DNA of 64,000 nucleotides, taken from the NCBI RefSeq assembly GCF_009818105.1, contig NZ_CP046564.1, positions 3,844,001-3,908,000 on the forward strand, written 5' to 3'. This document shows, one piece after another, positions 9,123 to 46,497 of the stretch. Source of the stretch: Bacillus sp. N1-1. Lineage in GTDB: Bacteria > Bacillota > Bacilli > Bacillales > Guptibacillaceae. Below the pieces are notes generated by a model that was not told the origin of the DNA, did no database searches, and worked only from the letters and a program-made list of their open reading frames with translations. Positions within the stretch are counted from its first letter, which is position 1. The number at the start of each line of letters is the position of its first letter. The translations under genes were made by a program, and so were the position numbers.

Positions 9123-9146
9123 GGGGTCAGGCTCGAGCCTGACCCC
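9123..9146. repeat. Perfect 24-base palindrome at the murQ1 stop
   Basis: GGGGTCAGGCTC followed by its exact reverse complement. It covers the murQ1 stop codon and encodes its last residues (RGQARA). There is no U-tract. It is unlike the eleven REP copies, though the GTCAGGC arms recall other REP types. Confidence 0.8.
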
Positions 9147-10038: not shown

Positions 10039-10056
10039 TTGCATCTCTCCTATTCG

Positions 10057-11836: not shown

Positions 11837-11848
11837 AGGATCGCCTCC

Positions 11849-12805: not shown

Positions 12806-12817
12806 ACTCTCCGCCCC

Positions 12818-14098: not shown

Positions 14099-14114
14099 TA
14101 CTTTTCCCCCTCGT

Positions 14115-15978: not shown

Positions 15979-16038
15979 AACTAGCCCACCTTTATCTTAT
16001 AAATTTTCAATCATTTCATTTTAGCATATCCTCACAGC

Positions 16039-16944: not shown

Positions 16945-16948
16945 TTCA

Positions 16949-18013: not shown

Positions 18014-18026
18014 GCCGTTACCTCCT

Positions 18027-19427: not shown

Positions 19428-19628
19428 AAGCTTTCCCCATTTCTTCTGATGATTTCATGAAACGATTCAATATCCTTCATACGTCTTCTATGTAATCAGA
19501 TAACTGATCCCCCTATGGCGTGAGTAATCCTCCCCTTTCAACACGATGGTTTATATTGAATTTTCTAATAATTTTAGTTTAACAAGTTTTATTTAATAAT
19601 GTAAGTGTTTTTGTGAAGTTTTATTACA

Positions 19629-19662
19629 TAAAAAAGCACTCGCCATTTTCACGAGTGCTTTT
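19629..19662 (-). terminator. Terminator of amiE-nagZ-namZ
   Basis: AAAAGCACTCG pairs with CGAGTGCTTTT, followed by a minus-strand T-run. It separates the secreted-hydrolase operon from murP. Confidence 0.85.
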
Positions 19663-19668
19663 AAACCC

Positions 19669-20940: not shown

Positions 20941-21005
20941 TCTCCGAACGCCTCCCCATTTTTTAAAAATCGGGAAGAATGAACACTTCTCCCCGATCAT
21001 CAGTG

Positions 21006-23093: not shown

Positions 23094-23117
23094 TTTACCC
23101 CTCCTGTTTGTTGAAAA

Positions 23118-30790: not shown

Positions 30791-31720
30791 TCACTCCTTC
30801 AACGCACTAAGCAATAACCCCCAAAACTTCTCCTGATCAATACCACGCGCAAACTTCACATTTGGCTCTCTTCCCGTCACATGAAGAAGATCCACGCAGG
30901 TGGTGCCGTATGTAAATTCTCCCTTCGTCTCAATATCCACACGCACCGTCTCGAATTCAAAGATCGACGCATCGATTAAATACGCAACTGTGCACGCATC
31001 ATGAATCGGGGCTCCTTCAAAACCAAAAACGTCTTTATAGGTTTTGGTGAAATACACGAGAAGCTCTCTAACAAATTCTGAGATCTCCCTGCCAATCGAA
31101 GCAATCTCATCAAGAATTGCAGGTGTTGTAATCGCCTGATGCGTAACATCAAGACCAAACATGGTAACTGGAATGCCGCTATTAAAGACAATTTCCGCCG
31201 CCTCTGCATCAACATAAATATTAAACTCAGCCGTAGGCGTCCAATTCCCAAACGTACCTCCGCCCATCAGAACGATTTCTCGAATCTTTTCAACGATTGC
31301 AGGTTCTTTTTGAATAGCCAATGCGATATTTGTGAGCGGACCTGTCGGAACGAGCGTGATCTCACCATCCGAAGCCAACAAACGCTCGATGATAAAATCG
31401 ACGGCACGCTGATCAATCACCTTTTTTTGCGGGACTTTAGGTAGCTGAGGTCCATCTAGTCCCGAGTCTCCGTGAATATCGGGAGCAAATTCACGCACTT
31501 TTACAAGCGGTTGCTTGGCCCCACGTGCAACAGGTACATCCAGTCCTAGTAAATCACACACTTTCAGCGCATTCAGCGTCGTTTTCTCAACTTCTACATT
31601 TCCCGCTACCGTTGTAATGCCTTCTATCTGGATTCGATCACTTGATGCGGCAAGAATAATGGAAATCGCATCATCATGACCAGGATCACAGTCTAAAATC
31701 ACTTTTCTTTTTTCGCTCAT
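30791..31720 (-). CDS. Nucleoside hydrolase
   Basis: 309-residue IunH-family hydrolase that splits nucleosides to base and ribose. Calcium-site motif ILDCDPGHDDAISI at the N-terminus, GDSGLDGP, VPTGPLTNIALA, GGG and FGLDVTHQA, and the distal His/Asp region GAPIHDACTVAYLID. ATG after AAAAGGAGAGATGCAAC. The TGA stop abuts a REP-like element. A hairpin separates it from the secreted hydrolase of the yhf operon, so it may be partly co-transcribed with that operon. Confidence 0.93.
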   Translation of the reverse strand: MSEKRKVILDCDPGHDDAISIILAASSDRIQIEGITTVAGNVEVEKTTLNALKVCDLLGLDVPVARGAKQPLVKVREFAPDIHGDSGLDGPQLPKVPQKKVIDQRAVDFIIERLLASDGEITLVPTGPLTNIALAIQKEPAIVEKIREIVLMGGGTFGNWTPTAEFNIYVDAEAAEIVFNSGIPVTMFGLDVTHQAITTPAILDEIASIGREISEFVRELLVYFTKTYKDVFGFEGAPIHDACTVAYLIDASIFEFETVRVDIETKGEFTYGTTCVDLLHVTGREPNVKFARGIDQEKFWGLLLSALKE

Positions 31721-31796: not shown

Positions 31797-33074
31797 TTAT
31801 TGGATTGAATCATATACGATATTCGCGATTTGCTTTGAAAGTCCTCCAGTACTTGGATAAGAACCAGTCTCAAGAGGGCCATTGTTTTGCTTATTTGTTA
31901 AAACAATAATTTGAAGATCATAAACAGGATCAAAAATCACTTGTGTTCCTGTAAAACCTGTATGCCCGAAAGCCTTTTCTGAGTGCCTATCTCCCATGTA
32001 CCAGCTTTTATCGAGCTCCCAACCATACCCCTGTCCAAAACGTTGTGGCTGTGTAAAAGAGTCAATTACTTGGTTATCATAAAGATTGACTTTTCCGTAA
32101 CTCCCACCATTCAACATTGCCTGTCCAAGCACGGCAAGATCCCGTGCGGTGGAGAATAAGCCAGCGTGTCCAGCAATACCTTCGTTTGCATAAAAACTAT
32201 TACCGTCATTAACTTCTCCAATAAGTGTATGATTTCTCCACCTTTCGAAATCCTCAGCCCGCTCTGGAACGTTGTAGCCAAATTCCGGATCATCGACCAT
32301 CTTATATTCAAAAGGGTTTCCCCATGAGGTGGCTGCGAGTTTACGATCAAGGTGATCTGAAGGAGTAAACATCGTATCTTTCATTTTAAGTGGCTCATAA
32401 ATATTTTTCTGAAGATAATCATCAAGCTTCTCTCCGCTTATTTCCTCAATGATAAACCCTAGCATCATAAAGCTAAAATCACTATAGCGACGATCGGTCC
32501 CGGTTTCGTATTCAAGTGGAAGGGCGTTGATATAGTTTAGAACTTCTTTTGAATTCTTAGCATGAAAATAAGTCGGTTGCCATGGAGTTAAACCAGACGT
32601 GTGTGTTAATAGGTCGGCAATTGTGACATCACCTTTGCCATTAGAAGCGAAATCAGGGATATATTTTGTTACACGATCATTTACTGATAATTCCCCCTCA
32701 CTAACAAGCTTCATAACCCCTTGTGTAGTTCCCATTACCTTAGTTAAGGATGCAAGATCAAAGATCGTTTTCTTTTTCATTTTCCTTGGTTTTTCTAAAA
32801 GAGCACCCATATCATATTTCTGTGCATCACCATAAGCTGATTCCTTGACGATTTTCCCATCCTTCGCTACTAGCACGACTGCACCAGGAGTAATATTATT
32901 TTCTATTGCCCCTTTCACGAGACGATCAATTTCTTCGAGAGTTGTAGAATCCATGCCGACACTTTGCGGACTACCGTGACTTAGTTTCTGTCCTTTAGCA
33001 GCAGTTGCTGTGGAAAAAAATGGCGTCGTCAATAGAAGAAGTATTACCATCAATAGAATAATTCGTTTTTTCAT
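31797..33074 (-). CDS. Secreted SxxK serine hydrolase, last gene of yhf operon
   Basis: 425 residues. Signal peptide MKKRIILLMVILLLLTTPFF; beta-lactamase-fold motifs SLTK (LASLTKVMGT), YSDFSFMMLG and GHTGFTGTQVIFDP. No lipobox. It starts 12 bases after yhfW with AAGGAGGAAGAAAA in front, so it is translated as part of that operon. Related to the other two hydrolases of the window and to AmiE-type amidases and esterases; substrate unknown. Its presence hints that the yhf pathway substrate is released outside the cell. Confidence 0.88.
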   Translation of the reverse strand: MKKRIILLMVILLLLTTPFFSTATAAKGQKLSHGSPQSVGMDSTTLEEIDRLVKGAIENNITPGAVVLVAKDGKIVKESAYGDAQKYDMGALLEKPRKMKKKTIFDLASLTKVMGTTQGVMKLVSEGELSVNDRVTKYIPDFASNGKGDVTIADLLTHTSGLTPWQPTYFHAKNSKEVLNYINALPLEYETGTDRRYSDFSFMMLGFIIEEISGEKLDDYLQKNIYEPLKMKDTMFTPSDHLDRKLAATSWGNPFEYKMVDDPEFGYNVPERAEDFERWRNHTLIGEVNDGNSFYANEGIAGHAGLFSTARDLAVLGQAMLNGGSYGKVNLYDNQVIDSFTQPQRFGQGYGWELDKSWYMGDRHSEKAFGHTGFTGTQVIFDPVYDLQIIVLTNKQNNGPLETGSYPSTGGLSKQIANIVYDSIQ

Positions 33075-33086
33075 TTTTCTTCCTCC

Positions 33087-34274
33087 TTAGCCTTCAAGAA
33101 TTTGATTAAGAAAGCTCGTACCTGCTTCAGTGGATTCAATATGAAAATAATCACTCAAGGTTGCGCCTATATCTGCCATAGTATTTCTTGTCCCAATCGA
33201 TACCGCTTTCACTTTAGGGCCAGTAATCATTAGAGGAGTATATTCTCTTGTATGTTTGGAATGTCCGATCGTAGGGTCATTCCCATGATCAGCCGTTACG
33301 ATTAAAATATCATCCTCGTTAAGCAAAGGAATAAACTCTTCCAGCCAATTATCTACTTCTTCAAGGAGCGAGGCGTACCAATTCGTATTTTCTGCATGAC
33401 CAGCAAGGTCTGTTTCTTGTACATTTACTAGAAAAGCCCCATGTTTTTCTTTACTAAATGCTTCTTTTAGTTGTTGAAGCACCTCCGTTGTATTCACAAT
33501 AGAATAGGCTAGGTGCTTTCCTTCGAGGACATCTGCCGTTTTCCCGATTCGATAAACTGGAATTTTAGATTCAGCTAGGGTTTGGAATTGTTTTTGTACA
33601 TTCACACCATATCCCATGTGACGAACGTGATAGTCTCTCCCATACACGCCTGCTTTAGGGCTATCAATTCCCCACTGTCCCTTTTCTCCCTTTTTTATTA
33701 CTGCTAAAAGTCGCTCAACTGAAGTATGAGGACCGCCTAATGTAATCACTCGGCTTGTATCAACGACTTCTCTTACAACGCTTCCTACTTTAAGCGCGTA
33801 TTCAAAAGAAACTTTTGTAAGGTCTGCCGTGACATTAATAATATTCCCAGGTGTCGATTCAATGTTATCAGCCACAATAATGGCGTCGTCGATTAACAAT
33901 ACCGGCAAATCCTCATAAGGATAAGCTACTTTGAAATTTTCACTCAGGAGGGTAGTAGCTATCTCACCATGCACATCTTTCATCAATCGTTTAGTGGGAC
34001 GTTTTGGAAGACTACCTACGATCTCCTGATGTCCCATGTAAGTATCAGCACCGTAGTGTGCAAGTCGGGCTTTTCCATAGGCACCTTTTGGCGTTCCGGT
34101 TTCATCGACAAGCTGGTTTAGACCCAGTGAATACATTGTTGGAATATCCAATAGTACTTTTTTCCGAATATGCTCATACGTATTTGCTACACAGTCCCCT
34201 GGTTCATACTCATCACAGTCATCCATCGCGCCAATCCCAAAACTATCAAGAATCAGCACTACCATACGTCCCAT
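33087..34274 (-). CDS. yhfW: Phosphopentomutase-like YhfW
   Basis: 395 residues of the alkaline-phosphatase superfamily, similar to DeoB. Metal sites are visible in LILDSFGIGAMDD, GADTYMGHQEIVGS (with the Thr that carries phosphate), ETDLAGHAENT and VTADHGNDPTIGHSKHTREYTPLMI. ATG 34274 is preferred, one base after the yhfX stop and behind GAAAGGAGAGG; the longer frame is an artefact. Its E. coli equivalent in the yhf operon has no established reaction. Confidence 0.85.
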   Translation of the reverse strand: MGRMVVLILDSFGIGAMDDCDEYEPGDCVANTYEHIRKKVLLDIPTMYSLGLNQLVDETGTPKGAYGKARLAHYGADTYMGHQEIVGSLPKRPTKRLMKDVHGEIATTLLSENFKVAYPYEDLPVLLIDDAIIVADNIESTPGNIINVTADLTKVSFEYALKVGSVVREVVDTSRVITLGGPHTSVERLLAVIKKGEKGQWGIDSPKAGVYGRDYHVRHMGYGVNVQKQFQTLAESKIPVYRIGKTADVLEGKHLAYSIVNTTEVLQQLKEAFSKEKHGAFLVNVQETDLAGHAENTNWYASLLEEVDNWLEEFIPLLNEDDILIVTADHGNDPTIGHSKHTREYTPLMITGPKVKAVSIGTRNTMADIGATLSDYFHIESTEAGTSFLNQILEG

Positions 34275-34275
34275 T

Positions 34276-35430
34276 CTATCCTCTCCTTTCGAAATGAACG
34301 ATTTCTGGAACACCATCATGTAACCCACGCACAAGAGCAACGTTCGCCCTAGTGACAAACACTTGTGTACGAAAAGCATAGATTGCCGTATCACCGATTG
34401 ATATTGGCGATCCACGTTCGAGCCTTCCATAGTAATCAATGTACTCAGAATTAAGAGACTTTCCTTTCAAAAAAGTATCAAAAATTTGTTCAGGAGAGCT
34501 TCCGACATAGGCACCGGTCATATTTCCCCGTTCATAAAACCCTCCTCCTATCACATAAACGTTCTCCTTGTCTTCATGAGAGATTTCGGATACGTAAATA
34601 ATAGCAGGATCCTCAGGAAGCTTTCGCACCGCGTGGAGTGGTGTAGTACCTGTCAGAGCATGACCCGGTTCCCCATGCGTAACACCTGCTTTTTTGAGCA
34701 TTGGGATGGTTTCTGTACTCGTTGCACTCGGTCCATTGACCTGTCGAATCTGAAATCCGGATGCTTCAAGTATTTCTTTTGCCGAAAGAATGGTTTTCAG
34801 ATTTTCTGTAAATCGTAACTCTTCCCGCTCCTTATCCATTAGCAATAATGGAAAAGAAGTAACTCCCATTACTTCAATTCCATCTAGTTGCTTAAGCTCT
34901 GAGATGGCTACTTGAAGTTCTTCTAACTGAAAGCCTCCCCACTGCCCAGGGTAAATGGTATCCAATGAATGAATAACTCTCAGAATAACGTCCTGTTTCT
35001 TTCCTAGTTTCATAGCTGCCTCTGACACCTGTCTTGCTCGCTCAATCGAAAAGACTGTAACAACCTCTGGTTCGAAGCCGAGAATCTCACCCCACTGATG
35101 TTTGCCAGGTTGAACGAGATGACCCACATTACCAATTTTGACACCTGACTGATGTAATCGGAAAGCTTCTTCAAATTCCACAGCAACAGCTTTTTCGATT
35201 CCATGTTCTGCAATCCAATTTCCAAGTTCACCAATACGGCCAAGCTGCTTACTCATAAAATACAAAACAAAATCATTCTCTTTAGCAGCCTTTGCCATGC
35301 TCCTAACATTTTTTGCTATTGTATCGAGATCGAGAACATAAGTATTAGGGGGAATAAGCCCAGATTGGTGAAGGTGTACTCCCGCTTTTATGAGCTCTGG
35401 ATTTCTCTTCTTTGTTAGTGAAAGAAACAA
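34276..35430 (-). CDS. yhfX: Alanine-racemase-fold PLP protein YhfX
   Basis: 384 residues, fold-type III PLP enzyme. The PLP lysine is probably in VLYFMSKQLGR near residue 60. Other family stretches are YVLDLDTIAKNVRSMAKAA and RQVNGPSATSTETIPMLKKAG. TTG start 8 bases after AGGAGG. Ends one base before yhfW. Probably a racemase or amino-acid-modifying enzyme by fold; activity unknown. Confidence 0.85.
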   Translation of the reverse strand: MFLSLTKKRNPELIKAGVHLHQSGLIPPNTYVLDLDTIAKNVRSMAKAAKENDFVLYFMSKQLGRIGELGNWIAEHGIEKAVAVEFEEAFRLHQSGVKIGNVGHLVQPGKHQWGEILGFEPEVVTVFSIERARQVSEAAMKLGKKQDVILRVIHSLDTIYPGQWGGFQLEELQVAISELKQLDGIEVMGVTSFPLLLMDKEREELRFTENLKTILSAKEILEASGFQIRQVNGPSATSTETIPMLKKAGVTHGEPGHALTGTTPLHAVRKLPEDPAIIYVSEISHEDKENVYVIGGGFYERGNMTGAYVGSSPEQIFDTFLKGKSLNSEYIDYYGRLERGSPISIGDTAIYAFRTQVFVTRANVALVRGLHDGVPEIVHFERRG

Positions 35431-35480
35431 TGTAGTAGCCTCCTAAACGACAGCGTATAGATCTTTTCTTAACTGTTTCC

Positions 35481-36575
35481 TTACTCTCCACGCAAAGCTT
35501 TTTGAAGAATACGGATAACGGTCTCTGCTCCAGCTTTCATTGGATTAATACGTAAACCGTAGTCAAATAATTTTGGTGTACTCTCAAGGAAACTACCAGA
35601 TATTCGATAAATCATTGGCACTAGTTCAAACCGGGATTCAGCACCAACTGGATAGGTTGCTGCTCCAAATGTCTTACTTCGCTCAATCACTTCTTGAGCA
35701 ACTGGCTCCTTCAATTCAACAATGACATTCTTTGATTGAGAGTTTGTAATATAAGCTTCTTTCACTCCATACACTTCACCTTCGTTTAACAACTCACACA
35801 AAATTTCAACTTGCTGACTCTGAATAGCTAACGAGACCGGGGCAAAAGGTAATGCCCTAAGCAACTCCATCGCTTCTGGCCCTTGAACCTGGCTACCTCC
35901 AGAATAATTTCGCTGCTGAATGGTTTCGATTGCACTCTCTCCTACCACCACTCCAATCCCTTCAGGACCTAGTAGCTTAAATCCGGAAAAAGTAGAGTAA
36001 TCCGCACCGGCTTGGACCCCAATGCAAGGCATTTTCAAGGCACAATAATTGTCATCAACAATTACTATCATTTCAGGTTTGATTGATTTCACTATCTGAA
36101 TAACTTCTTTAAGCTGATACGTATCGATTGGTTGCTGTCTTGCGTGTTGGATATAGAAAACCTTTGCTTCTGAACGTATAACATTCTGTTTAAGGGCATC
36201 GAAATCATTAAAATCAACTTCTTCAGTTCGTAATCCAAGCATTCGAATCGTTTCTTTAGTTGTCATATAAATAGGTGCAGAGTGAATGATCATGGATTCT
36301 CCCGGTTCGAGGAGGGCACTTAAGAGCGAGCGAATGGCACCAGTACCCGATCCTCGCACAAGTACCGCTTGATTAGCTCCAAATACATTCGCCATCACTT
36401 TTTCAACTTTCGCAGTTGTTCTAGGACGCTTATAGATCGGATGCACACCGCGATCACCATCTTGGAACATTTCATTATCCTTAAATTCTTTAGTAATAAA
36501 ATCTACAATTTCAAACTGCTTTTTTGATGCTTCTTCAACCGACATCTGAGGTATGACAGATTCCTGATATCTCAA
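35481..36575 (-). CDS. yhfS: PLP aminotransferase-like YhfS
   Basis: 364 residues of aspartate-aminotransferase fold (type I). Asp binding the pyridine ring in VIVDDNYCALKMP and the PLP lysine in STFSGFKLLGPEGIGVVVG. N-terminal half has LVRGSGTGAIRSLLSALLEPGE, as in Cys/Met-metabolism or selenocysteine-lyase-like proteins. TTG start after GGGGAG. Next to php and yhfX in the yhf operon. Confidence 0.85.
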   Translation of the reverse strand: MRYQESVIPQMSVEEASKKQFEIVDFITKEFKDNEMFQDGDRGVHPIYKRPRTTAKVEKVMANVFGANQAVLVRGSGTGAIRSLLSALLEPGESMIIHSAPIYMTTKETIRMLGLRTEEVDFNDFDALKQNVIRSEAKVFYIQHARQQPIDTYQLKEVIQIVKSIKPEMIVIVDDNYCALKMPCIGVQAGADYSTFSGFKLLGPEGIGVVVGESAIETIQQRNYSGGSQVQGPEAMELLRALPFAPVSLAIQSQQVEILCELLNEGEVYGVKEAYITNSQSKNVIVELKEPVAQEVIERSKTFGAATYPVGAESRFELVPMIYRISGSFLESTPKLFDYGLRINPMKAGAETVIRILQKALRGE

Positions 36576-36577
36576 TG

Positions 36578-37495
36578 TTATGCGCTCCCCTTTCTACTGA
36601 AAGCATGCGCTGGGTTGTCAATTAACATCATTCGGATATCCTCATCAGACAAACCAGCTTCTTTTAAGCGAGGAACAAATTCATTGAGAACATGGTCATA
36701 TCCAATACCACCGTGCTTATGCCAATGTGATTTTCTTGTTAAATCAGCAGATAATAAAATCTGCTCACCATATCCTCTTTCAATTAGATGACAAATCATT
36801 TTAATTCGCTCTTCATCAGGTCGATAATTAATTTTGCCAATGGTATCAAATCCTACAAACGCCCCAGCTTCAACAACAGCAAGTACTCGTTCATCATCTT
36901 GATTAAGGTCTTGATGCCCCACAATCAATTGGTTCATTGGCAATCCAAGAGCAGAATAAAGTTCAACTTGCTCGACTCCCATCGTTCCGAGCGTTGTATG
37001 TGTGGTGAGCGGAAGCCCCGTTTCCATTGCTGCGATTCCTGCCCCAGTTAAGAGTTCTTCTTCAATAGGCTTGATCTCATAATGACTGCTCCCAATTTCT
37101 CCAATAACGCCAGGATAAACGTCTGTTCCATCAATCCCATTCTTTATTTCATCAATCATATGTTGTGCAAACTGATCACGATTCCATTTCGTTGCTTGAT
37201 CTGGGAGGAATGGGTCTTTATAAAATCCTGTACTTGCGATGAGATGCACACCGGTTGTTTCGCTTAACTTCCTAAGGAGAGTGGCATTACGTCCCATTCC
37301 GTCGTTCGTAACTTCAACCATCGCCTGTCCACCTGAAGCTTTAAAGTAGCGAAGTTCTTCTTCCATTCCACCTATATCATCAAGAATAGTGTCGGGATCT
37401 TTTTTGATTCGTGATAGGTCAATACAAAGGTGTTCATGAGCTGAACAAACCCCAAGCTCATTAGGATTAATTTGTCCTCTAACCGTTTGAATCAT
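36578..37495 (-). CDS. php: Phosphotriesterase homology protein Php (YhfV)
   Basis: 305-residue amidohydrolase-superfamily TIM barrel. Metal ligands are visible: HEHL near residue 20, the bridging Glu in GVIGEIGSSHYEI, THTTLG, GHQDLN, and the final Asp in LSADLTRKSHW. Natural substrate of Php unknown; not the organophosphate hydrolase proper. ATG after GAAGGAGGAGCTAAG. Confidence 0.9.
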   Translation of the reverse strand: MIQTVRGQINPNELGVCSAHEHLCIDLSRIKKDPDTILDDIGGMEEELRYFKASGGQAMVEVTNDGMGRNATLLRKLSETTGVHLIASTGFYKDPFLPDQATKWNRDQFAQHMIDEIKNGIDGTDVYPGVIGEIGSSHYEIKPIEEELLTGAGIAAMETGLPLTTHTTLGTMGVEQVELYSALGLPMNQLIVGHQDLNQDDERVLAVVEAGAFVGFDTIGKINYRPDEERIKMICHLIERGYGEQILLSADLTRKSHWHKHGGIGYDHVLNEFVPRLKEAGLSDEDIRMMLIDNPAHAFSRKGSA

Positions 37496-37509
37496 CTTAG
37501 CTCCTCCTT

Positions 37510-38805
37510 CTACTGTGGTATTTGCATAAGTCCTAGAACGACAAGAATGTTCGCCAAAATCCCAACTGCGATCGCGCCAATCGGTCCTATAGCCATTCGC
37601 ACAATTGGTCGGCCCGCAATCTCATTTAACAAATAGAATCCTGCAATGATAAAGAACCCGAGACCAGGAGCAATAGCATTAGCTGCGTTTGCACCACCAA
37701 TCAAAAGAGCAACTTCTAGAATTCGACTCATCGCTGTACGAATATTTTCTCCTGATTGACGTACACCAGGATATTTATCAAGAAAACGAGCAATCTGGCT
37801 TAGTAGCATAACCTCTAGAAAAACAGTAATAGTACCGATAATAGCTGCAACCCATACATTTGGAACAAGCAATCCTACGACGAAAATGATTGTAAATCCA
37901 ACTGGACTATAAACACCTGTTGCAATCGCCGTACTAGCAACTAGAGGGATAAATCCAAGTGCACGAGCTCCAGCAGCGATAGCAGCATCTGTTATTTTTC
38001 CGTCTGCAATTAAATTTAAAGATATTGGATCTCCAGCCATAATCAAAAGGTTCGTAGCTGCAGCAATAAGCCCACCCATAATCATGAAATAAACGACATG
38101 CTTTTTAATGCGATCGACTCTCTCACTGAAAACCGAAGCAAGATCAATCCCGCTTCCGTCCCCTTCAGGTTTTTGACGCACAGCATATGTAATTAAGAAA
38201 ATCATTCCAGTAATAAGAGCCATTCCTTCTTGATTTAACGTAACCGTCGTATCACCGAAAGTCATGACACCGCTTTCATTTAACCATACAGCTAACTGCC
38301 GGATAATTGCTGAAGTGATAAACGTTAGAACACCTTTTTTAACACTGAATTGCAATGCCACAGCTAAAGCTGGAAATGCCATGAAGGTTACCACTACCGG
38401 CGATCCCACTTGGCCCATTGCATCTAAAAAATTTAATGGCAGTTTTTCAAATAAAGTGACAAATCCTTCTAGTCCAACTAATAAACCTGCACCATATGCT
38501 CCACCTACAATTGCTGCAACAGGTGTACCCCATTTATTTCGCGGGGTGATCAATCCAATAATATCTGTTCCTAGCAAAATACTATGGATAAGGATAATGC
38601 TTGCTGTAATGGTAAACGGAATCCCAAAACCAACAACAAGTCCAAAACTCATAGCAAAAGCAGTTAGACCAAGCTCTTTACGTCCCATTCGCCCTTCAGT
38701 ATTTTCAGGTACAATTGGTCGTAAGCCATCGTTAAAGACAGCCAAATTCAAATTCGCAAGAACAGCTGCCATAGCCCCTATTAAGATGACGAGAACCATT
38801 TCCAT
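37510..38805 (-). CDS. yhfT: YhfT-type permease, about twelve membrane segments
   Basis: 431 residues, very hydrophobic, with glycine-rich segments (ALTAFAMSFGLVVGFGIPFTITASI, GGAYGAGLLVGL). Equivalent of YhfT in E. coli, thought to be the transporter of the yhf system. Stretch SNLNLAVFNDGLRPIVPENTEG-like at the N-terminus is family-typical. ATG after GGGGGTTCATTAC. Confidence 0.85.
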   Translation of the reverse strand: MEMVLVILIGAMAAVLANLNLAVFNDGLRPIVPENTEGRMGRKELGLTAFAMSFGLVVGFGIPFTITASIILIHSILLGTDIIGLITPRNKWGTPVAAIVGGAYGAGLLVGLEGFVTLFEKLPLNFLDAMGQVGSPVVVTFMAFPALAVALQFSVKKGVLTFITSAIIRQLAVWLNESGVMTFGDTTVTLNQEGMALITGMIFLITYAVRQKPEGDGSGIDLASVFSERVDRIKKHVVYFMIMGGLIAAATNLLIMAGDPISLNLIADGKITDAAIAAGARALGFIPLVASTAIATGVYSPVGFTIIFVVGLLVPNVWVAAIIGTITVFLEVMLLSQIARFLDKYPGVRQSGENIRTAMSRILEVALLIGGANAANAIAPGLGFFIIAGFYLLNEIAGRPIVRMAIGPIGAIAVGILANILVVLGLMQIPQ

Positions 38806-38825
38806 GTAATGAACCCCCTTCCAAA

Positions 38826-39185
38826 TTATAGTGCTTTAATTGCCCTCATGATCATCGGCACGGCAGTTTCCATATGATCTGCAGTAAAACCAAATGCTTT
38901 TTTTCCGTCCTTAACAGCCTGTAAAATTTTTTCTTCATTCGGTTTCCTTCCCGGCATTGAAACCGTTTCACAGCTGGGCTTCCCAATTATAGCAATCGCC
39001 ATTGCTAGCGCTCCGCCGCCCCCAGTGTGACACGCTCCAACATAGTAATCTGCCTGACCAGTTTTCACTGCCATGGCGGCTTCTACATCTGATTTAACTG
39101 AGGTTTCCACTCCATCTGGTCCATGTTCCTTCACAAGGGCTTCAACTTCTTTTTTATCGACCTGACCACCTACAACAATTTTCAT
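38826..39185 (-). CDS. yhfU: DUF2620 protein YhfU
   Basis: 119 residues. Alpha/beta protein with ADYYVGACHTGGGGALAMAI, a glycine-rich loop that could bind phosphate or a cofactor. Orthologs sit beside yhfT in every yhf operon I recall; function unknown. AGGAGGAAATTTAA before ATG. Confidence 0.85.
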   Translation of the reverse strand: MKIVVGGQVDKKEVEALVKEHGPDGVETSVKSDVEAAMAVKTGQADYYVGACHTGGGGALAMAIAIIGKPSCETVSMPGRKPNEEKILQAVKDGKKAFGFTADHMETAVPMIMRAIKAL

Positions 39186-39560
39186 TTAAATTTCCTCCTT
39201 TTTGATTTCTTGAAAAATAGATACATAGTGTATTTTCAAAAAGGCAATTTCAGATTGTGGAATTTCCTCAGTCCAATTGGATTGAATCCAGCTAATCTCC
39301 CTTTTTGCTACTTGTATTAGATCGGATTTCTCTATTTCCGAAATGAGCTCATCCGGGGGCGGATCGATCGATTCTCCACGCGAGATACGCGTTAAGGCGG
39401 ATGCAAGGTGAGTGACAAGCATTTCTACTTTATTTTGGGGAAGCGGCTTTTGCGTCTGACTACTTAATCTTTGAACGGCTTGCTCGGCGATAGCTGAAGC
39501 TTCTGAACTAATCACATCACCTGCTTTCAGAATATCTAATCGTTCTTTAATCGTCGTCAT
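39186..39560 (-). CDS. yhfY: PRD-like protein YhfY
   Basis: 124 residues, helical, with the PTS-regulation-domain pattern LVTHLASALTRISRGE and an acidic C-terminus. No DNA-binding domain. It starts right behind the second operator and ends immediately before yhfU. Probably a regulatory accessory of YhfZ. Confidence 0.75.
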   Translation of the reverse strand: MTTIKERLDILKAGDVISSEASAIAEQAVQRLSSQTQKPLPQNKVEMLVTHLASALTRISRGESIDPPPDELISEIEKSDLIQVAKREISWIQSNWTEEIPQSEIAFLKIHYVSIFQEIKKEEI

Positions 39561-39574
39561 AAAATCAACCCTCC

Positions 39575-39596
39575 AATATACAGTATTTAGTATATT
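39575..39596. promoter_or_regulatory. Candidate YhfZ operator 2, before yhfY
   Basis: AATATAC-N8-GTATATT, perfect 7-base arms, between the yhfZ stop and the yhfY ribosome site. Same geometry as the site at 40573-40594. Confidence 0.65.
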
Positions 39597-39628
39597 AATT
39601 CTATAAGTAATCTTAGAAGAAATCCTAC

Positions 39629-40561
39629 CTAATAACTCGGATAAATTTCTCCTTTTTCAACTTGAATTTGCAACTCTTTAACGTTAATGACAGATAAATC
39701 AAGTAAGGCATCTCTGAGTTCTACTCTCTCCCTATGTAATAGCATAGTAGCCTCATTTACTTTCCTACTTAGTTCCTGAGCTTTAATCGAGCGGAATGAT
39801 CCTTTTCCCATTTCTTCTGAATGAATGATCTCATCCTTATTCCAAACTGCAGCATCAATTTCATTGTTCTTGAGCATCTCCATCAACTGCATGTAGTTTA
39901 CTTCAATTAATTGAACGTCAATACCTTCTGTTTCATACTCCGTAAGAAGATGCTGATCAGCTGAAGAATAGTCAATTCCTACACGCATACCGCTTTGAAT
40001 AGATTTGTTTTTAGGGTTAGAAAAAACAATTTCATGTCCTGAAACGTAGGAGTTCTTTCCAAAATTTTTCACCATCTCGATACTACCATCATTCTCAATA
40101 GCAAGCTCAGCTGCAAGCCTTGAAACAATCACAAAATCATACCTTCCAGCTTTCAACGCTTCAATTCGATTTGATGATCCTCTCATAAATGCAAGATTAA
40201 AAGGAATTTTCATTCTTTCAAGCACCTGAACTAAACCAGTAGCAAGGCCTTCATATTTTCTCGAATATGGCAAAGGCATGGCACCCATAACAGATCCAAG
40301 TCCTGCAATATCCCAAAGTAACTGTCGATCAGTTCTAACAAGAAACGTACCAAGGTGTCCCCTCGCTTCAAGAACAATGGCTCCTATTTCTTCAAGTAGA
40401 CGTAACGCTCCCTGAATTGTCCCCCTTCCAAGTGATGTTTCTGTAACAAAATCACTTACGCGAGGAATACGGCTTCCCGGCTCGATCGCTAGTAGATTAG
40501 CAGCAATTCTCCTAGCTGCGAGCCCATTCTTGCTGTATAATTTCTCCCATTTGCCTTCCAT
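39629..40561 (-). CDS. yhfZ: GntR-like regulator YhfZ with ligand-binding domain
   Basis: 310 residues. N-terminal winged helix (FVTETSLGRGTIQGALRLLEEIGAI) followed by a periplasmic-binding-like effector domain (MRVGIDYSSADQH, FDFVIVSRLAAELAIENDG). It is the first gene of the operon and reads in the same direction; the operator at 40573-40594 at its own promoter points to autoregulation. Best judged a YhfZ ortholog by operon context. Confidence 0.85.
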   Translation of the reverse strand: MEGKWEKLYSKNGLAARRIAANLLAIEPGSRIPRVSDFVTETSLGRGTIQGALRLLEEIGAIVLEARGHLGTFLVRTDRQLLWDIAGLGSVMGAMPLPYSRKYEGLATGLVQVLERMKIPFNLAFMRGSSNRIEALKAGRYDFVIVSRLAAELAIENDGSIEMVKNFGKNSYVSGHEIVFSNPKNKSIQSGMRVGIDYSSADQHLLTEYETEGIDVQLIEVNYMQLMEMLKNNEIDAAVWNKDEIIHSEEMGKGSFRSIKAQELSRKVNEATMLLHRERVELRDALLDLSVINVKELQIQVEKGEIYPSY

Positions 40562-40572
40562 ATCCTCACCTC

Positions 40573-40594
40573 AATATACAATTTTTCGTATTTT
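40573..40594. promoter_or_regulatory. Candidate YhfZ operator 1, at the yhfZ promoter
   Basis: AATATAC-N8-GTATTTT, 7-base arms with one mismatch, spanning about +2 to +23 of the predicted transcript. Confidence 0.65.
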
Positions 40595-40602
40595 CACTAT
40601 AT

Positions 40603-40631
40603 AGGATAACTTAGAATCGAAAACTTTTCAA
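40603..40631 (-). promoter_or_regulatory. Promoter of the yhf operon
   Basis: Minus strand TTGAAA (40631-40626), 17 bases, TATCCT (40608-40603). The operator lies directly downstream. Confidence 0.5.
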
Positions 40632-40772: not shown

Positions 40773-42062
40773 TTAAAACAAATTAGGATTAATCACTTTT
40801 GGAAGATAAAACGCGACATCGGGTATAAAAGCCACGACTAAAAGTACTACGAGGACAATGGCAATATACGGCATAACGGCTCCTAACGAACGCTCAACCG
40901 GTAGCTTTCCTATTTTCGCCGCTAGAAGTAAACACAATCCATATGGCGGTGTCACCAGTCCAACAGCCAACGTCATGATTGTCACAATTCCTAGTAAGAT
41001 AGGATCAATTTCAAAACCGATCGCAACTGGCAATATAACTGGGATAAATAAAATCATAGCCGGTATAGCATCCATAAACGTTCCTATGAATAAGAAGAAA
41101 GCAATGATGATCAAAAGAAATACCCATTTGCTATCAATGTTATTGGCAAAGAATTGCTCAGCCCATAATGATAATTGATAGTAACTCATCAATTCACCCA
41201 GCGCATTTGCTGCCGCTAAAGCGAATAGAGACAATGAACTAAGTGTTAGCGTATCGACTAGAATTTTTGGGAAATCTTTTATTTTTAGTGTTTTGTAATA
41301 AAAAAGACCAATGATCACTGTATAAAGTGAAGCAAATGCAGCTGCTTCTGTTGCTGTGAAAATGCCTGTAATGATTCCCCCAATTAAGATAACTGGAGTC
41401 ATTAGGGCAGGAATAGTACCGATGAACTGCTTCATAAAATTTTTCATGGAAGCTTTTTGATAAGTTGGATAGCCTCTCTTTCTCGCAAGAATATAAACCA
41501 GGACCATCATGCCAAGACCAACGAGAATACCAGGAATGATTCCTACTAAGAACAAAGCACCAACTGATACATTCGTTAGTCCTGCAAAGATAATCATTGG
41601 AATGCTTGGAGGAATGATTACTCCGATAGTAGAAGATGCTGCTGTAATACCTACCGCTGTTTCAGTGTCATATCCCTGTTTCTTCATATTAGGAATTAAG
41701 ATCTTCCCTACTCCCGCCGTGTCAGCTTGAGCGGCACCTGAAACTCCTGCAAATAGCATAGAGACAAGAATATTTGCATGAGCTAGTCCACCACGAATAT
41801 GACCTACAATCGCTAGCGCCAGATCGATTAACTTTTGTGAAATTTGGCCACTATTCATCAAGTTTGCTGCTAAAATAAATAGTGGAACTGCTAATAATAC
41901 AAACGAATCTAAACCATTCAGCATTTTAACGGGTACAGTTACTTCAGGAATATAAGGCACATTCAAAATTCCTAACAGAGCTACAATGCCAATGACGAAA
42001 GCAATTGGAATGCCTAGAAACATCAAGATAATAAATAGACCTACTAACAGAATACCAATCAT
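40773..42062 (-). CDS. TRAP transporter large permease DctM
   Basis: 429 residues, about 12-14 membrane helices. SGAAQADTAGVGKILIPNMKK, GITAASSTIGVIIPPSIPMII and VTPPYGLCLLLAAKIGKLPVE are DctM hallmarks. Overlaps dctQ by 4 bases and is followed by the operon's terminator. Transports a sugar acid or organic acid with Na+. Confidence 0.93.
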   Translation of the reverse strand: MIGILLVGLFIILMFLGIPIAFVIGIVALLGILNVPYIPEVTVPVKMLNGLDSFVLLAVPLFILAANLMNSGQISQKLIDLALAIVGHIRGGLAHANILVSMLFAGVSGAAQADTAGVGKILIPNMKKQGYDTETAVGITAASSTIGVIIPPSIPMIIFAGLTNVSVGALFLVGIIPGILVGLGMMVLVYILARKRGYPTYQKASMKNFMKQFIGTIPALMTPVILIGGIITGIFTATEAAAFASLYTVIIGLFYYKTLKIKDFPKILVDTLTLSSLSLFALAAANALGELMSYYQLSLWAEQFFANNIDSKWVFLLIIIAFFLFIGTFMDAIPAMILFIPVILPVAIGFEIDPILLGIVTIMTLAVGLVTPPYGLCLLLAAKIGKLPVERSLGAVMPYIAIVLVVLLVVAFIPDVAFYLPKVINPNLF

Positions 42063-42544
42063 TCAGTTACCTCCTTTTCGGAGAAATTTCTTACATTACG
42101 GAGAATGTGAGCAAACGTGTAAATGACCATCGTTCCCCCCATAATTGGAATGGAAATCCAAACATACCCCATCTTTAATTCCGGAATAGATACCCATGTG
42201 TAGTTCCAAAAGTTTTGTACTGCTTCGATTCCTAAATAAAATAACCCTATACTAAACATGAGAAGAATTAAATCATTTATGAGATATAAGCTTTTTTTGC
42301 TTTTACCAGTTAATTTGTTCAATAAAAGGTCGAATTTAAAATGCTCTCTTCGATTAAGCATCACAGATGCTCCCATAAATACTGCCCAAATAAACGAATA
42401 TGTTGCAACTTCCTCCGTCCAAATCGCTGAAACACCCATATATCGTGTAATGACTTGAATAACTATTGTGATAAAAAACACGACGAGAAACAAAACACCG
42501 ATGGTTAATTGAATCCGCTCAAGCAGCTTAATAAGCACAGCCAA
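42059..42544 (-). CDS. TRAP transporter small permease DctQ
   Basis: 161 residues, four helices; RYMGVSAIWTEEVATYSFIWAVFMGASVML is the family core. A TTG at 42544, right behind AAGGGGGAAT, is preferred over the upstream in-frame start. Confidence 0.85.
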   Translation of the reverse strand: MAVLIKLLERIQLTIGVLFLVVFFITIVIQVITRYMGVSAIWTEEVATYSFIWAVFMGASVMLNRREHFKFDLLLNKLTGKSKKSLYLINDLILLMFSIGLFYLGIEAVQNFWNYTWVSIPELKMGYVWISIPIMGGTMVIYTFAHILRNVRNFSEKEVTE

Positions 42545-42626
42545 ATTCCCCCTTCTACAAACCTGAGACGAGTGATTAGATGAATGGCGAAGGTACAAGC
42601 TATACCCTCGCCGCCCTCTTCTTCAC

Positions 42627-43649
42627 TTATTTCAAATCACGAATTTCTTTCAATAACTCAGTCGCACCGATTTCTTCTGCATTTTTGTCCTGTATAGGTT
42701 TAGCTAACTCAATGAAAGGTTTTCGATCAATTTCATTTACGATTGCGCCTTCATCAATCGCTTTTTGTTTGTACTCTTCTTCTTGCTGGTGAAGAATCTC
42801 AACTTCTTTCTGAACGGAAGCTTCAGCTGCTTTTAGTACGGCATCCTTTTGCTCATCAGTATAAGAATCGAATTTCTCTCCATTGATTAGTAGCAAGCGT
42901 GTCGTGTAGTCATGAGCTGTTTCTGTAATGTACTTTCCGTTTTCAGTCTTGTGGTGATTTTGTTGAACAAAATAAGGATAGGCATTCTCAGAAGCATCTA
43001 CTACTCCCTGTTGCAAGGCTTGATATAACTCTCCCCATGCTACAGACGTTGGTACTGCTCCAGTTTCTTCCCAATAGTCTGCAATTGCCCCAGAAGTTTG
43101 GGTGCGGAATTTCATACCTTCAATATCCGCCATGTTATTTAACGGTTCTTTACCATAATAATGACGTACGCCTGCTGTCCAATAACCTAGTACTTTAAAA
43201 GTGTTATCGGACTTCTCATTAATCGTTTTAGCAATTTGATCACCTACGTCTCCACTAACTGCTTTCTCCCAATGATCATAACTATCAAAAACGTAAGGCA
43301 TAGCGAATAAATCAATTTCTTTAATACCCGTTTTCGACATAAAACCAGGAGACACAAGGACAACGTCCGCCCCGCCAAGTTTAAGTTTTTCAACAAGTTC
43401 TGATTCGCTTGTACCTAATGTTCCTGCATGTACTTCTACTTCTATACTTCCATCGCTACTTTCTTCTGCTACTTTTTTAAACTCTTTCATCCCGAATTGA
43501 TATGGGTTTTCTGGTGAAGTTTGGTTATGGGCTGCAATGATTTTAATCTTTCCATTCTCGTCGGCTCCAGCATTTTCACTATTTCCACAACCTGCAAGAA
43601 CACCGAGAGATAAAACCATAACGAGCAATAAAGTTGATACATACTTCAT
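42627..43649 (-). CDS. TRAP transporter binding lipoprotein DctP
   Basis: 340 residues. Lipobox LGVLAGCGN; family core MKFRTQTSGAIADYWEETGAVPTSVAWGELYQALQQGVVDASENAYPYF contains the conserved Arg that binds the ligand carboxylate. ATG 43649 is chosen, 8 bases after GAAGGAGG. Neighbours suggest a 2-keto-3-deoxy sugar acid or a uronate as cargo. Confidence 0.92.
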   Translation of the reverse strand: MKYVSTLLLVMVLSLGVLAGCGNSENAGADENGKIKIIAAHNQTSPENPYQFGMKEFKKVAEESSDGSIEVEVHAGTLGTSESELVEKLKLGGADVVLVSPGFMSKTGIKEIDLFAMPYVFDSYDHWEKAVSGDVGDQIAKTINEKSDNTFKVLGYWTAGVRHYYGKEPLNNMADIEGMKFRTQTSGAIADYWEETGAVPTSVAWGELYQALQQGVVDASENAYPYFVQQNHHKTENGKYITETAHDYTTRLLLINGEKFDSYTDEQKDAVLKAAEASVQKEVEILHQQEEEYKQKAIDEGAIVNEIDRKPFIELAKPIQDKNAEEIGATELLKEIRDLK

Positions 43650-43663
43650 AAAAAAATCCTCCT

Positions 43664-44329
43664 TCATTTTATGAATTCGTTTTCAAAAACGACGTTATTA
43701 TTTTCTTCTATTAGCTTTGCAACATATTGCCTTGCCAATTCTCTTAAACTCTCAAAATCTTCATTTGTCGATAGTAGATTAGGTTGAACAAGTTGACTCC
43801 CAATCCCTACAACTTTTGCTCCAGCTTCAAAGTAATCCAACATATTTTCCTTATCGATTCCACCAGTTGCCATAATTTGAAGTTGAGGAAGAGGTCCAAG
43901 AATGTTTTTAATATAACCTGCCCCCATGCTGTTAGCCGGAAAAACCTTTACCATATCAGCTCCAGCTTCATAAGCTTTCAACATTTCCGTTGGCGTCAAG
44001 GCACCGATAATGCACGGAACTCCATACCTTTTTGCGACCTTCACTGTATGCTCATTAACCGTCGGTGAAACGATAAACTGAGCACCAGCCATAATGACTG
44101 CTCTAGCTGTTTCGCCATCTAATACTGTCCCAGCACCTACTAACAATCCTTCAACCTTATCTCTAACATCCCTAATCATTTTTTCAACCTCTGGTGTTTC
44201 TGCTGTAATCTCAATTGCTTTAATCCCACCCTCAAATAGTGCCTGGGCTATTGGTAAAATATTATCTTGACTCGCTTTGCGGATAACGGGGACAACTTTT
44301 GCTTCTTGTACCTTTTGTAAGCTGGTCAA
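43664..44329 (-). CDS. eda: KDPG/KHG aldolase
   Basis: 221 residues, class I aldolase. Schiff-base lysine in DMVKVFPANSMGAGYIKN and catalytic Glu in IKAIEITAETPEVE. It splits 2-keto-3-deoxy-6-phosphogluconate into pyruvate and glyceraldehyde-3-P, the step after the kinase at 45523. Start set at TTG 44329 because AGAGG lies suitably upstream; GTG 44338 is part of that ribosome site. Confidence 0.9.
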   Translation of the reverse strand: MTSLQKVQEAKVVPVIRKASQDNILPIAQALFEGGIKAIEITAETPEVEKMIRDVRDKVEGLLVGAGTVLDGETARAVIMAGAQFIVSPTVNEHTVKVAKRYGVPCIIGALTPTEMLKAYEAGADMVKVFPANSMGAGYIKNILGPLPQLQIMATGGIDKENMLDYFEAGAKVVGIGSQLVQPNLLSTNEDFESLRELARQYVAKLIEENNNVVFENEFIK

Positions 44330-44340
44330 TTTACACACCT

Positions 44341-44895
44341 CTATTCCATATTTGCATGTTTGGCTGTCATTTTTTCATTATCAGTTTTTTTAGATTGATT
44401 GATCGTGTAGATGATAATAGCGTCCAAGAGCAAATGCAGCGATTGATCAAATTGATTTCCAAGAGGTTGAATCGTATCAGGCTCTCCTGGCAATCTTTTT
44501 TTAGTAGCTGCAGGGACAACTAGTAAATGGTCACTTAATTCAGCTAGCCTGGAGTGTTCATTCGTAGTAATTGCTGATATGCGAGCGCCAAGTTCTTTTG
44601 CCTTTTCAGCAAAATAACAAATAGACTGAGTTGAACCTGAACCAGAGATAGCGAGCAACAAATCATCTTTTTCGATATTCGGAGTGATCGTTTCACCCGT
44701 AACATAAACTTCATATCCTCCGTGCATTAATCTCATCGCAAAGGCCTTGCCCATCAGTCCAGAGCGTCCTTCTCCAGTCACAAAAATTCGTTTAGCTCCC
44801 TCTATGTAAGAAGAGAGGTGCTTCGCTTGATCTTCGTTCACTTCTGTTAAAACCTGTTTTATTTCATTAACGACAGTTTGAATGACTTCTTTCAT
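44341..44895 (-). CDS. hxlB: 6-phospho-3-hexuloisomerase HxlB
   Basis: 184-residue SIS protein: GEGRSGLMGKAFAMRLMHGG and LLLAISGSGSTQSICYFAEKAKELGA. The C-terminus (TIQPLGNQFDQSLHLLLDAIIIY, ending HANME) matches B. subtilis HxlB well. It isomerises arabino-3-hexulose-6-P to fructose-6-P in the formaldehyde-fixing RuMP route. Overlaps hxlA by 29 bases. Confidence 0.9.
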   Translation of the reverse strand: MKEVIQTVVNEIKQVLTEVNEDQAKHLSSYIEGAKRIFVTGEGRSGLMGKAFAMRLMHGGYEVYVTGETITPNIEKDDLLLAISGSGSTQSICYFAEKAKELGARISAITTNEHSRLAELSDHLLVVPAATKKRLPGEPDTIQPLGNQFDQSLHLLLDAIIIYTINQSKKTDNEKMTAKHANME

Positions 44896-45517
44896 ACTCC
44901 TGGATCGCCTCCTTTATTTGTGTAGCCGCGTGTCTACGATTCGCCTGTTTAGTAATACCTCCTCCAACAATTAAAGTATGAGGATTGTAAGGAAGGATCC
45001 TTGGAAGCGATTCAAGATTGATTCCACCAGCGACAGCGACTTGTAAACCTTGAATTTCATTCACAAGTTCAAAAATATCACCGGTGATACTTCCATTTTT
45101 CTGCATGTCTTTCCCAAAATGGAGGCTCACCAGATCCACTCCTAGTTCTCGAATCTGCCGTATGCGATTCTTATTAGAAACGCCCAATAAATCAACCATA
45201 ACCCTTCCCTCATACGCTAAAGCGACATGCAACATGTCTGATATCGTTTGATCTGACGCAAAAGCCATAACAGTCGTAATGTCAGCGCCAGCCTCATAAG
45301 CCTGAGCAGCTTCATATTTTCCAGCGTCACAGGTTTTCATATCTGCTACGATCGTTGTTTCAGGGAAGTTTTCTCTAATATCTCTTACGATTGACATCCC
45401 ATATTCTTTTATGACGCCTGTCCCTATCTCAATCCAGTCAATGGAATCAGATGTCTCCTCAAGGATTTTCAAACACTCTTCATACGATAGCCTGTCTAGT
45501 GCTATTTGAAGTTTCAC
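44867..45517 (-). CDS. hxlA: 3-hexulose-6-phosphate synthase HxlA-like
   Basis: 216-residue OMP-decarboxylase superfamily barrel. LQIALDRLSYEECLKILEE, IVADMKTCDAGKYEAAQAYEAGADITTVM and VDLLGVSNKNRIRQIRELGVDLVSLHFGKD. The DxKT-DAG pattern favours hexulose-phosphate synthase over 3-keto-gulonate-6-P decarboxylase. GTG 45517 is chosen since GAGGTG sits 6 bases before it. Pairing with hxlB supports formaldehyde fixation or the reverse reaction. Confidence 0.85.
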   Translation of the reverse strand: MKLQIALDRLSYEECLKILEETSDSIDWIEIGTGVIKEYGMSIVRDIRENFPETTIVADMKTCDAGKYEAAQAYEAGADITTVMAFASDQTISDMLHVALAYEGRVMVDLLGVSNKNRIRQIRELGVDLVSLHFGKDMQKNGSITGDIFELVNEIQGLQVAVAGGINLESLPRILPYNPHTLIVGGGITKQANRRHAATQIKEAIQEYERSHSNCR

Positions 45518-45522
45518 CTTGT

Positions 45523-46479
45523 TCACCTCTCAATAAATTCTCTTTCGCCAAGCTGGGTAAGGACTTCACCCAACTCTGGCAGTCCTTCATTATCTCCATA
45601 GACACTTACAACCAAAGAGCCAATGGCGTTAGAAAACTTAAGGGTTCTTTCAAGAGTCCATCCATTTAGTAATCCGTAAACAAATCCTGCATCGAATCCG
45701 TCCCCTGCTCCAACAGTATCCACTACTTTCTTAGGTGGAATTGCTGCAGCATGAACAAGTTCACCATTTTGAAAAGCACTAGCTCCGTCTTTACCTTTTT
45801 TTATCGCAATTGTGGAGATATCATATTTTTGACAAGCCTGCGCAATTTGTGTTGGATCATGGACGCCAAAAAGCAGTTCAGCTTCATCTTCACCAGTAAG
45901 TAATACGTCTACATAAGGAAGAAGCTCAGTTAAACCGCTTCTTGCTTCTTCAGGTGACCACAATTTCAAACGAATGTTAGGATCAAATGTGATAATCGCT
46001 CCATTATCTTTAGCGATCGTAGCAGCTCGTTTAAGAAGAGAGAGATTTTTATGAGGATTAATTGCAGCGAAAACTCCTGTTATATGTAATAGTTTGCAAT
46101 TGCGTAAAGTTACTTCATCAAGAGTCGCTTCTGTTAAAGCCTCTGTAGGGGAATGGTGACGATAGTAGAACGTTTTGCCGCTACCGTCTTCTCTAATTTC
46201 TTTGAAATTTAACGAAGTAGAGTATTGATCCAGCAACTTCACTTCCGAAACATCAATTCCCTCTCCTCTAGCAAAATTGCGTATATATTTTCCAAACTCA
46301 TCATTTCCTAACCTACTGATCCATCCCGTTTGCAAGCCAAGCCTCGCACATCCAATTGCGAAGTTAAATTCAGCACCGCCTGCTTTCCGTTCAAAAGTGG
46401 AAGCATACCTCATTGGTCCGTGGTGGGAGGGGTCAAATGTAATCATGGCATCCCCAATTGTAACAACATCTTTTTTCAT
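45523..46479 (-). CDS. kdgK: PfkB-family 2-keto-3-deoxygluconate kinase
   Basis: 318 residues. Sugar-site GGAEFNFAIGCARLG, the KDG-type TFYYRHHSPTEALTE, and the C-terminal catalytic VDTVGAGDGFDAGF. It phosphorylates KDG to KDPG, the Eda substrate. ATG after GAAGGGAGACC. Stop overlaps the ribosome site of hxlA. Confidence 0.85.
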   Translation of the reverse strand: MKKDVVTIGDAMITFDPSHHGPMRYASTFERKAGGAEFNFAIGCARLGLQTGWISRLGNDEFGKYIRNFARGEGIDVSEVKLLDQYSTSLNFKEIREDGSGKTFYYRHHSPTEALTEATLDEVTLRNCKLLHITGVFAAINPHKNLSLLKRAATIAKDNGAIITFDPNIRLKLWSPEEARSGLTELLPYVDVLLTGEDEAELLFGVHDPTQIAQACQKYDISTIAIKKGKDGASAFQNGELVHAAAIPPKKVVDTVGAGDGFDAGFVYGLLNGWTLERTLKFSNAIGSLVVSVYGDNEGLPELGEVLTQLGEREFIER

Positions 46480-46497
46480 AACTGGTCTCCCTTCAAC

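Follow-up and report, generated by a model that had tools for sequence, protein, structure and literature searches.

In the analysed window, a stretch of 64,000 nucleotides from Bacillus sp. N1-1 (NZ_CP046564.1, positions 3,844,001 to 3,908,000), eight genes of the Yhf families follow each other on the minus strand from 40561 down to 33087 in the order yhfZ-yhfY-yhfU-yhfT-php-yhfS-yhfX-yhfW (Table 1), with gaps, read from yhfZ to yhfW, of 68, 0, 20, 14, 2, 50 and 1 bases. They form an operon of a known, uncharacterised kind, and the window's version of it is Gram-positive and carries two additional genes. The reading that we tentatively prefer, at somewhat below an even chance, is that the operon serves amino-sugar catabolism entering at glucosamine-6-phosphate and is controlled by the phosphoenolpyruvate-dependent phosphotransferase system (PTS) through YhfY.

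All eight products were matched above the cut-offs by the hidden Markov models of Pfam (YhfZ_C 262 bits, PRD 50, DUF2620 167, YhfT 582, PTE 270, YhfS-like_C 150, YhfX-like_C 104 and Metalloenzyme 119), which agrees with the eight co-directional yhf genes and the gaps of 0–68 bases proposed in the first-pass annotation. Its upper bound at 40631 falls on the first base of a promoter-like site, while the frame of yhfZ begins at 40561. A yhfW beginning at the listed TTG (34439) overlaps with yhfX; the ATG at 34274 yields the conserved N-terminus.

Scanning a single genome of each species gave 338 relatives, the best 80 of which were fetched and together with three records of a plasmid collection make up 83 loci, or 88 with five further loci; the counts thus describe near relatives, with two records representing Gammaproteobacteria. 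Short loci (L001-L007) were excluded from the synteny counts, loci cut by a contig end (L075 and L076, for example) were retained and one row (L092), with a weak YhfT match and no yhf gene found there, was dropped. All eight genes are present in 70 of the 83 loci, which excludes a chance grouping and upholds the earlier view of one conserved unit. The gene order of the window recurs in 60/83 loci and the order Z-Php-S-W-X-Y-U-T in eight, while in E. coli (L010) it is Z-Y-X-W-Php-U-T-S and the Vibrio locus, which is without yhfS in the stretch fetched, differs as well. The gene-by-gene match to the E. coli yhf/php operon (yhfS-Z) that had been claimed therefore stands for the protein families, all eight of which are common, but not for the gene order; the window proteins are 33–46% identical to those of E. 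coli, the window adds an S12 hydrolase and a nucleoside hydrolase gene, and its listed genes include no frl operon alongside. The record L010 itself (NZ_OL790696.1) is a 4.8-Mb E. coli "plasmid" with both yhf and frl operons and is probably a mislabelled chromosome. Within the phylum YhfT is rare, being matched in 7/299 genomes (E ≤ 0.001), six including G000 when a weak match lacking surrounding yhf genes (G142) is set aside, and YhfS_C is present in the same six and in G045. The closest YhfT sequences are those of Pseudalkalibacillus spartinae and P. hwajinpoensis (99 and 100% identity).

The pairing of yhfU and yhfT is nearly always kept: yhfU precedes yhfT without an intervening yhf gene in 83/83 loci and with a spacing of at most 250 bases in 82 of them, across ten gene arrangements, some incomplete; the exception (L080) has a PTS and MupG between the two genes. 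When comparing the loci of the order Z-Php-S-W-X-Y-U-T with the window, YhfT is 74–77% and YhfU 70–74% identical whereas Php, YhfS, YhfX and YhfW reach 41–49%, so that the Y-U-T genes and the enzyme genes have had different histories and behave as two modules. In Bacillus sp. T33-2 (L016:9247-20476) a stand-alone YhfY-YhfU-YhfT set was seen next to another, divergent yhf operon that includes NagB.

Evidence for an amino sugar comes from the genes accompanying the operon. NagB is encoded in or near 11 of the 88 loci, where a gene present once per genome would be expected in about 0.4 (Poisson P about 1e-12, for 86 loci and with kinship ignored), and the one example tested exceeds the NagB cut-off. 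In ten loci, from both Bacilli and Clostridia, the gene runs in the direction of the yhf genes and directly next to them (spacing of -20 to 192 bases), located either after yhfW or between yhfX and an amidase-like gene; in L069 it is on the opposite strand. These neighbours lend independent support to the amino-sugar half of the earlier guess, breakdown of "an amino-sugar or amino-acid-linked phosphoester", while its second half is not supported, nothing pointing to a phosphodiester and the bridging residue of Php being Glu in 84/84 sequences. An amidase-like protein is found in 30/88 loci, a weak label that derives from one member scoring 25.4 bits with PF01425 (cut-off 27) and from the annotation of one record; a second member had no Pfam match at E ≤ 1e-5. 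In three loci (L064, L065, L072) the gene for HPr is next to yhfW or NagB, and in L065 (Paenibacillus tyrfis) Enzyme I comes after it. In Vibrio halioticoli a lactose/cellobiose-type PTS is located upstream of yhfZ, and the PTS of Anaeromonas gelatinilytica (L080) is related to it (IIC 41% identical). Between the Vibrio PTS and a porin, upstream of the yhf operon, a DUF7916 protein is encoded (L009:7131-8021).

YhfZ scored 378 bits with NCBIfam NF041241 (YhfZ_full, cut-off 260). YhfY consists of a PRD domain (PF00874) whose histidines H51 (82/82) and H111 (76/82) are both kept in the window, and with the EF_0829 model TIGR03582 it scored 20 bits, below the cut-off of 69. The PRD histidines, together with the three HPr neighbours and the one Enzyme I neighbour, are the reason for proposing PTS control. 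YhfU, labelled plainly as DUF2620 before, can now be described as a protein of predicted RpiB/LacAB fold, with an invariant Cys52 within a CxTGGGG loop. Its sequence matches the RpiB/LacAB isomerases only at E 0.05–0.22, the Cys being kept, and the RpiB/LacAB family was absent from the Pfam matches at E ≤ 1 of 48 YhfU members scanned. At the place of what we take to be the N-terminal Asp-His of RpiB, YhfU has GGQ, leaving the full active site incomplete. YhfT (PF10797, 582 bits) gave a helical model (predicted local distance difference test score, pLDDT, 82) that showed no clear fold match.

Among the enzymes, Php matches PF02126 and retains H20 and H22 (83/84) and E133, H166, H194 and D251 (84/84); its nearest solved structures (1bf6 and 4lef) are both named Phosphotriesterase homology protein, and its score with the E. 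coli-type model NF007373 (phosphotriesterase-related protein) was 294 bits, below the cut-off of 486. The bridging residue of phosphotriesterase is a carbamylated Lys, and at this position Php has Glu133 throughout. On the idea of Php as a phospho-sugar lactonase like Lmo2620 (3pnz) the alignment speaks both ways: of three Lmo2620 residues with presumed roles, R275 corresponds to R254 of Php (84/84), but K244 and Y278 correspond to N223 and H257 in the window. A search of the open-access literature for a paper on this found none. YhfS retains its pyridoxal phosphate (PLP) Lys200 (81/81) and is nearest to the YhfS structure 4j8l. YhfX, with YhfX-like_C and Ala_racemase_N domains, retains the PLP Lys61 (82/82) and has 4kbx (YhfX) as the sole solved relative found; a D-threonine-aldolase-type metal enzyme was considered for it and dropped, H285 being invariant but its HxD partner D287 present in just 41/82. 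YhfW scored 490 bits with PRK12383, named phosphopentomutase (cut-off 254), and resembles the phosphopentomutase structure 3m8w (E 7e-34). The alignment to 3m8w assigns T78 as nucleophile (T in 57 and S in 19 of 76) and D10, D289, H293, D329, H330 and H341 as the six metal ligands (76/76), their roles presumably being those of DeoB phosphopentomutase. The residues retained in YhfW, Php, YhfX and YhfS fix no reaction.

The analysis shows the gene content, the synteny, the yhfU-yhfT pairing, the predicted RpiB fold of YhfU, the retention of catalytic residues and the accessory genes; from these features we infer a route in which the reactions, the substrate and the PTS role are all conjectural. 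YhfZ would sense an effector and YhfT, constantly accompanied in the cytoplasm by YhfU, would import an amino-sugar-containing compound, while the PRD domain of YhfY would place the unit under control by PTS phosphorylation. Php, in many genomes together with the amidase-like protein, would open a bond of the acyl, lactone or lactam type, and the amino-bearing carbon would be reworked with PLP by YhfX and YhfS. YhfW would move a phosphate, for instance from hexosamine-1-phosphate to hexosamine-6-phosphate, and NagB, encoded within the operon or at another place in the genome, would deaminate the product. In the lineage of the window the secreted S12 hydrolase may release the compound extracellularly, perhaps from muropeptides.

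Several observations weigh against this route. No NagB lies nearby in 77/88 loci, NagB elsewhere in those genomes not having been searched for, and yhfW is absent from six loci (L012, L013, L027, L054, L056, L061), in five of which the S12 hydrolase gene directly follows yhfX. PTS Enzyme II families (IIA/IIB/IIC) were not found in Pfam scans of the window proteins, YhfT included, and of the 48 YhfU proteins, and YhfT gave no sequence match to PTS IIC and no clear fold match. The E. coli operon in L010 converges on an frl operon (FrlA transporter, deglycase, epimerase, kinase and GntR regulator, all above cut-offs), pointing to glycated amino acids. For an origin of the substrate from muropeptides there is evidence on both sides. 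MurQ, the N-acetylmuramic acid 6-phosphate etherase, was found in 49/50 yhf genomes (the sample being 50 of the 80 relatives' loci) and in 5/6 others versus 166/299 Bacilli (Fisher P 2e-10 for 49/50, not corrected for kinship), an enrichment that favours such an origin but is confounded by kinship, as most of the 50 are Bacilli, with seven or eight named Clostridia. It is located within 30 kb of yhfT in 3/56 genomes, 1/50 (G299) and 2/6 (G000, G209), which is not beyond chance (0.96 expected, P 0.07) and is a lower bound, as in most cases the genome is a draft whose two genes fall on separate contigs.

The window itself contains a muropeptide-salvage cluster at 9127-24794 (minus strand) with MurQ twice (49% identical), MurR, MupG, a MurP-like PTS, NamZ and NagZ, and with two more S12 proteins, a sugar ABC transporter and an N-acetylglucosamine-kinase-like gene. 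A cluster of this type, murQRP-amiE-nagZ, is known from B. subtilis (PMC5061867); the similar cluster lies 8 kb downstream of yhfW and its S12 protein is 37% identical to the yhf-linked one, whereas the genes that the accessible part of that paper describes include no member of the eight Yhf families. Among the 88 loci, MupG was found near yhf in three (L080, L087, L088; P 0.009), MurQ in L087 and L088, NagZ in L012, L013 and L053 and the S12 type of the mur cluster in L012 and L013. Linkage to muropeptide clusters as a general rule is not supported by the MurQ count, and with that physical linkage not significant, salvage of the substrate from cell walls or muropeptides is taken as no more than a possibility.

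Three other explanations were considered. An amino acid or phosphoester pathway without any amino sugar, which the first-pass annotation allowed as well, NagB and the amidase-like gene being accidental neighbours, would account for the two PLP enzymes and the phosphomutase and for the many loci with no NagB nearby; we regard it as unlikely, though with a real chance, as NagB occupies two different operon places in both Bacilli and Clostridia. Breakdown of a sugar-amino-acid conjugate, a glycated amino acid, with the PLP enzymes acting on the amino acid and the others on the sugar phosphate, would suit the S12 hydrolase and the amidase-like protein as enzymes of an acyl-amino bond, and would give the frl neighbour of E. 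coli a meaning. That neighbour was seen in one record, the other loci not having been searched for Frl proteins, and to our knowledge the fructoselysine route requires no PLP enzyme, which leaves this explanation with a small chance. Salvage of a pentose or nucleoside, in which YhfW would be a genuine phosphopentomutase and YhfU would act as an isomerase like RpiB, with the sugar coming from the nucleoside hydrolase, draws on the likeness of YhfW to phosphopentomutase, the predicted fold of YhfU, the nucleoside hydrolase as possibly the last gene of the unit in the window and a gene after yhfW in L074 (Indigoidine_A, 442 bits) that we take to be PsuG-like. It appears quite unlikely: YhfW scored 149.7 bits with the deoB model TIGR01696, below the cut-off of 341.2, the positions aligned to D156 and R193 of the B. 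cereus phosphopentomutase, to which we assign pentose-binding roles, are not kept (D in 46/76, R in 5/76), the nucleoside hydrolase hardly occurs beyond close relatives and the two PLP enzymes are left unexplained.

Comparisons beyond the Yhf families tie the operon to a second one. In the protein search the best 120 of 1967 matches were nearly all plain DUF2620. YhfU is homologous to SFCGS, and YhfY matched the PRD proteins of SFCGS operons (hhalign E 6e-7). These EF_0829-EF_0839-type operons, which we take to encode PRD, SFCGS, DUF4312/4311/4310, an amidohydrolase, a SelA/DgaE-like PLP enzyme and a DgaF-like aldolase (the EF_ names and the DUF4310/4311/4312, DgaE and DgaF labels being our own assignments, with TIGR03577 EF_0830 alone from a search), share with yhf the set of PRD, RpiB-like and membrane proteins and, in 3/5 loci fetched, a hydrolase together with a PLP enzyme of fold type I. 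They differ in having an aldolase, in their DUF4310/4311-like membrane proteins, to which YhfT is not detectably related (E 0.45–0.64), and in that no YhfX or YhfW, not searched for, was noted in the fetched stretches. Kinship of Php with the amidohydrolase (E 0.07) was not convincing, and that of YhfS with the DgaE-like protein (E 1.6e-6) is as expected for two fold type I enzymes. The PRD and SFCGS (RpiB-like) domains are fused in one frame in L119:8134-8883 (minus strand) and separate genes in L117 and L118, while the genes of L120 were not resolved by open reading frame calling. As a speculation, and a decidedly improbable one, the two operons could be branches of a PTS-driven type of uptake system that has gone unrecognised, with the RpiB-fold protein (YhfU or SFCGS) in place of Enzyme IIB, the stand-alone PRD in place of Enzyme IIA and an unrelated membrane protein (YhfT or DUF4310/4311) as the channel, in which the invariant Cys of the CxTG/CGSG loop would be a phosphoryl carrier or a transport-coupled catalyst.

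The two extra genes of the window had been expected to narrow the function. The nucleoside hydrolase does so to no great extent, being found at 73–93% identity only in the near relatives L012, L013 and L060 and as a 37% match in L042, whereas an S12 hydrolase like that of the window (PBP4B-like) recurs more widely, near yhf in 15/88 loci and on the other strand in two of these. The S12 protein matched PF00144 with 236 bits, contains SxxK (SLTK) and HTG motifs and scored 314 bits with the PBP4B model, below the cut-off of 385. Its gene is probably co-transcribed with the yhf genes and the unit may extend through both hydrolases to ten genes. Two further terminator-like sites on the same strand are located inside yhfT and inside the S12 gene, and the promoter and terminator scans gave sites no more numerous than in shuffled DNA.

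Table 1. Features of the yhf operon and its flanks (positions in the window)
Feature	Position	Strand	Description
yhfZ	39629..40561	-	GntR-type helix-turn-helix and YhfZ_C effector domain, regulator
yhfY	39186..39560	-	Stand-alone PRD domain
yhfU	38826..39185	-	DUF2620; predicted RpiB/LacAB fold
yhfT	37510..38805	-	Multi-helix membrane protein, putative permease
php (yhfV)	36578..37495	-	PTE-family metal hydrolase, Glu-bridged type
yhfS	35481..36575	-	Fold type I PLP enzyme
yhfX	34276..35430	-	Fold type III PLP enzyme
yhfW	33087..34274	-	Alkaline-phosphatase-superfamily phosphomutase
Secreted S12 (beta-lactamase family) hydrolase, PBP4B/AmiE-like	31797..33074	-	12 bases after yhfW
Nucleoside hydrolase	30791..31720	-	76 bases beyond S12 gene; PF01156 354 bits
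Promoter-like site TTGAAA-17-TATCCT	40603..40631	-	Upstream of yhfZ; weak
Terminator-like hairpin	40677-40652	-	Upstream of yhfZ promoter-like site
Terminator-like site	30739-30721	-	After nucleoside hydrolase gene

Elsewhere in the window, 40773-47505 (minus strand) holds a TRAP transporter-like unit with KDPG-aldolase-like, SIS-domain, OMP-decarboxylase-like and PfkB-kinase genes and a LacI-type regulator (names given by eye), and an S-adenosylmethionine (SAM) riboswitch (98.7 bits) was identified at 6317-6425 (minus strand) upstream of an NlpA-type lipoprotein gene.

A search of the open-access literature, subscription journals being outside it, returned no paper on the function of the yhf operon; one paper, in its accessible part, has DUF2620 and YhfX as table entries only. 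Nor were the RpiB fold of DUF2620, the tie to SFCGS and the context of NagB, HPr and Enzyme I found stated there. The unit spans Bacillus, Clostridium, Cetobacterium, Vibrio and E. coli, and no substrate was found reported despite at least three solved protein structures. NagB, the amidase-like gene and HPr/Enzyme I within the operon narrow the question of the substrate in a testable manner, to hexosamine phosphates for YhfW and N-acyl or lactam hexosamines for Php, and the predicted RpiB fold of YhfU together with its kinship with SFCGS turns two uncharacterised operons into a single comparative problem.

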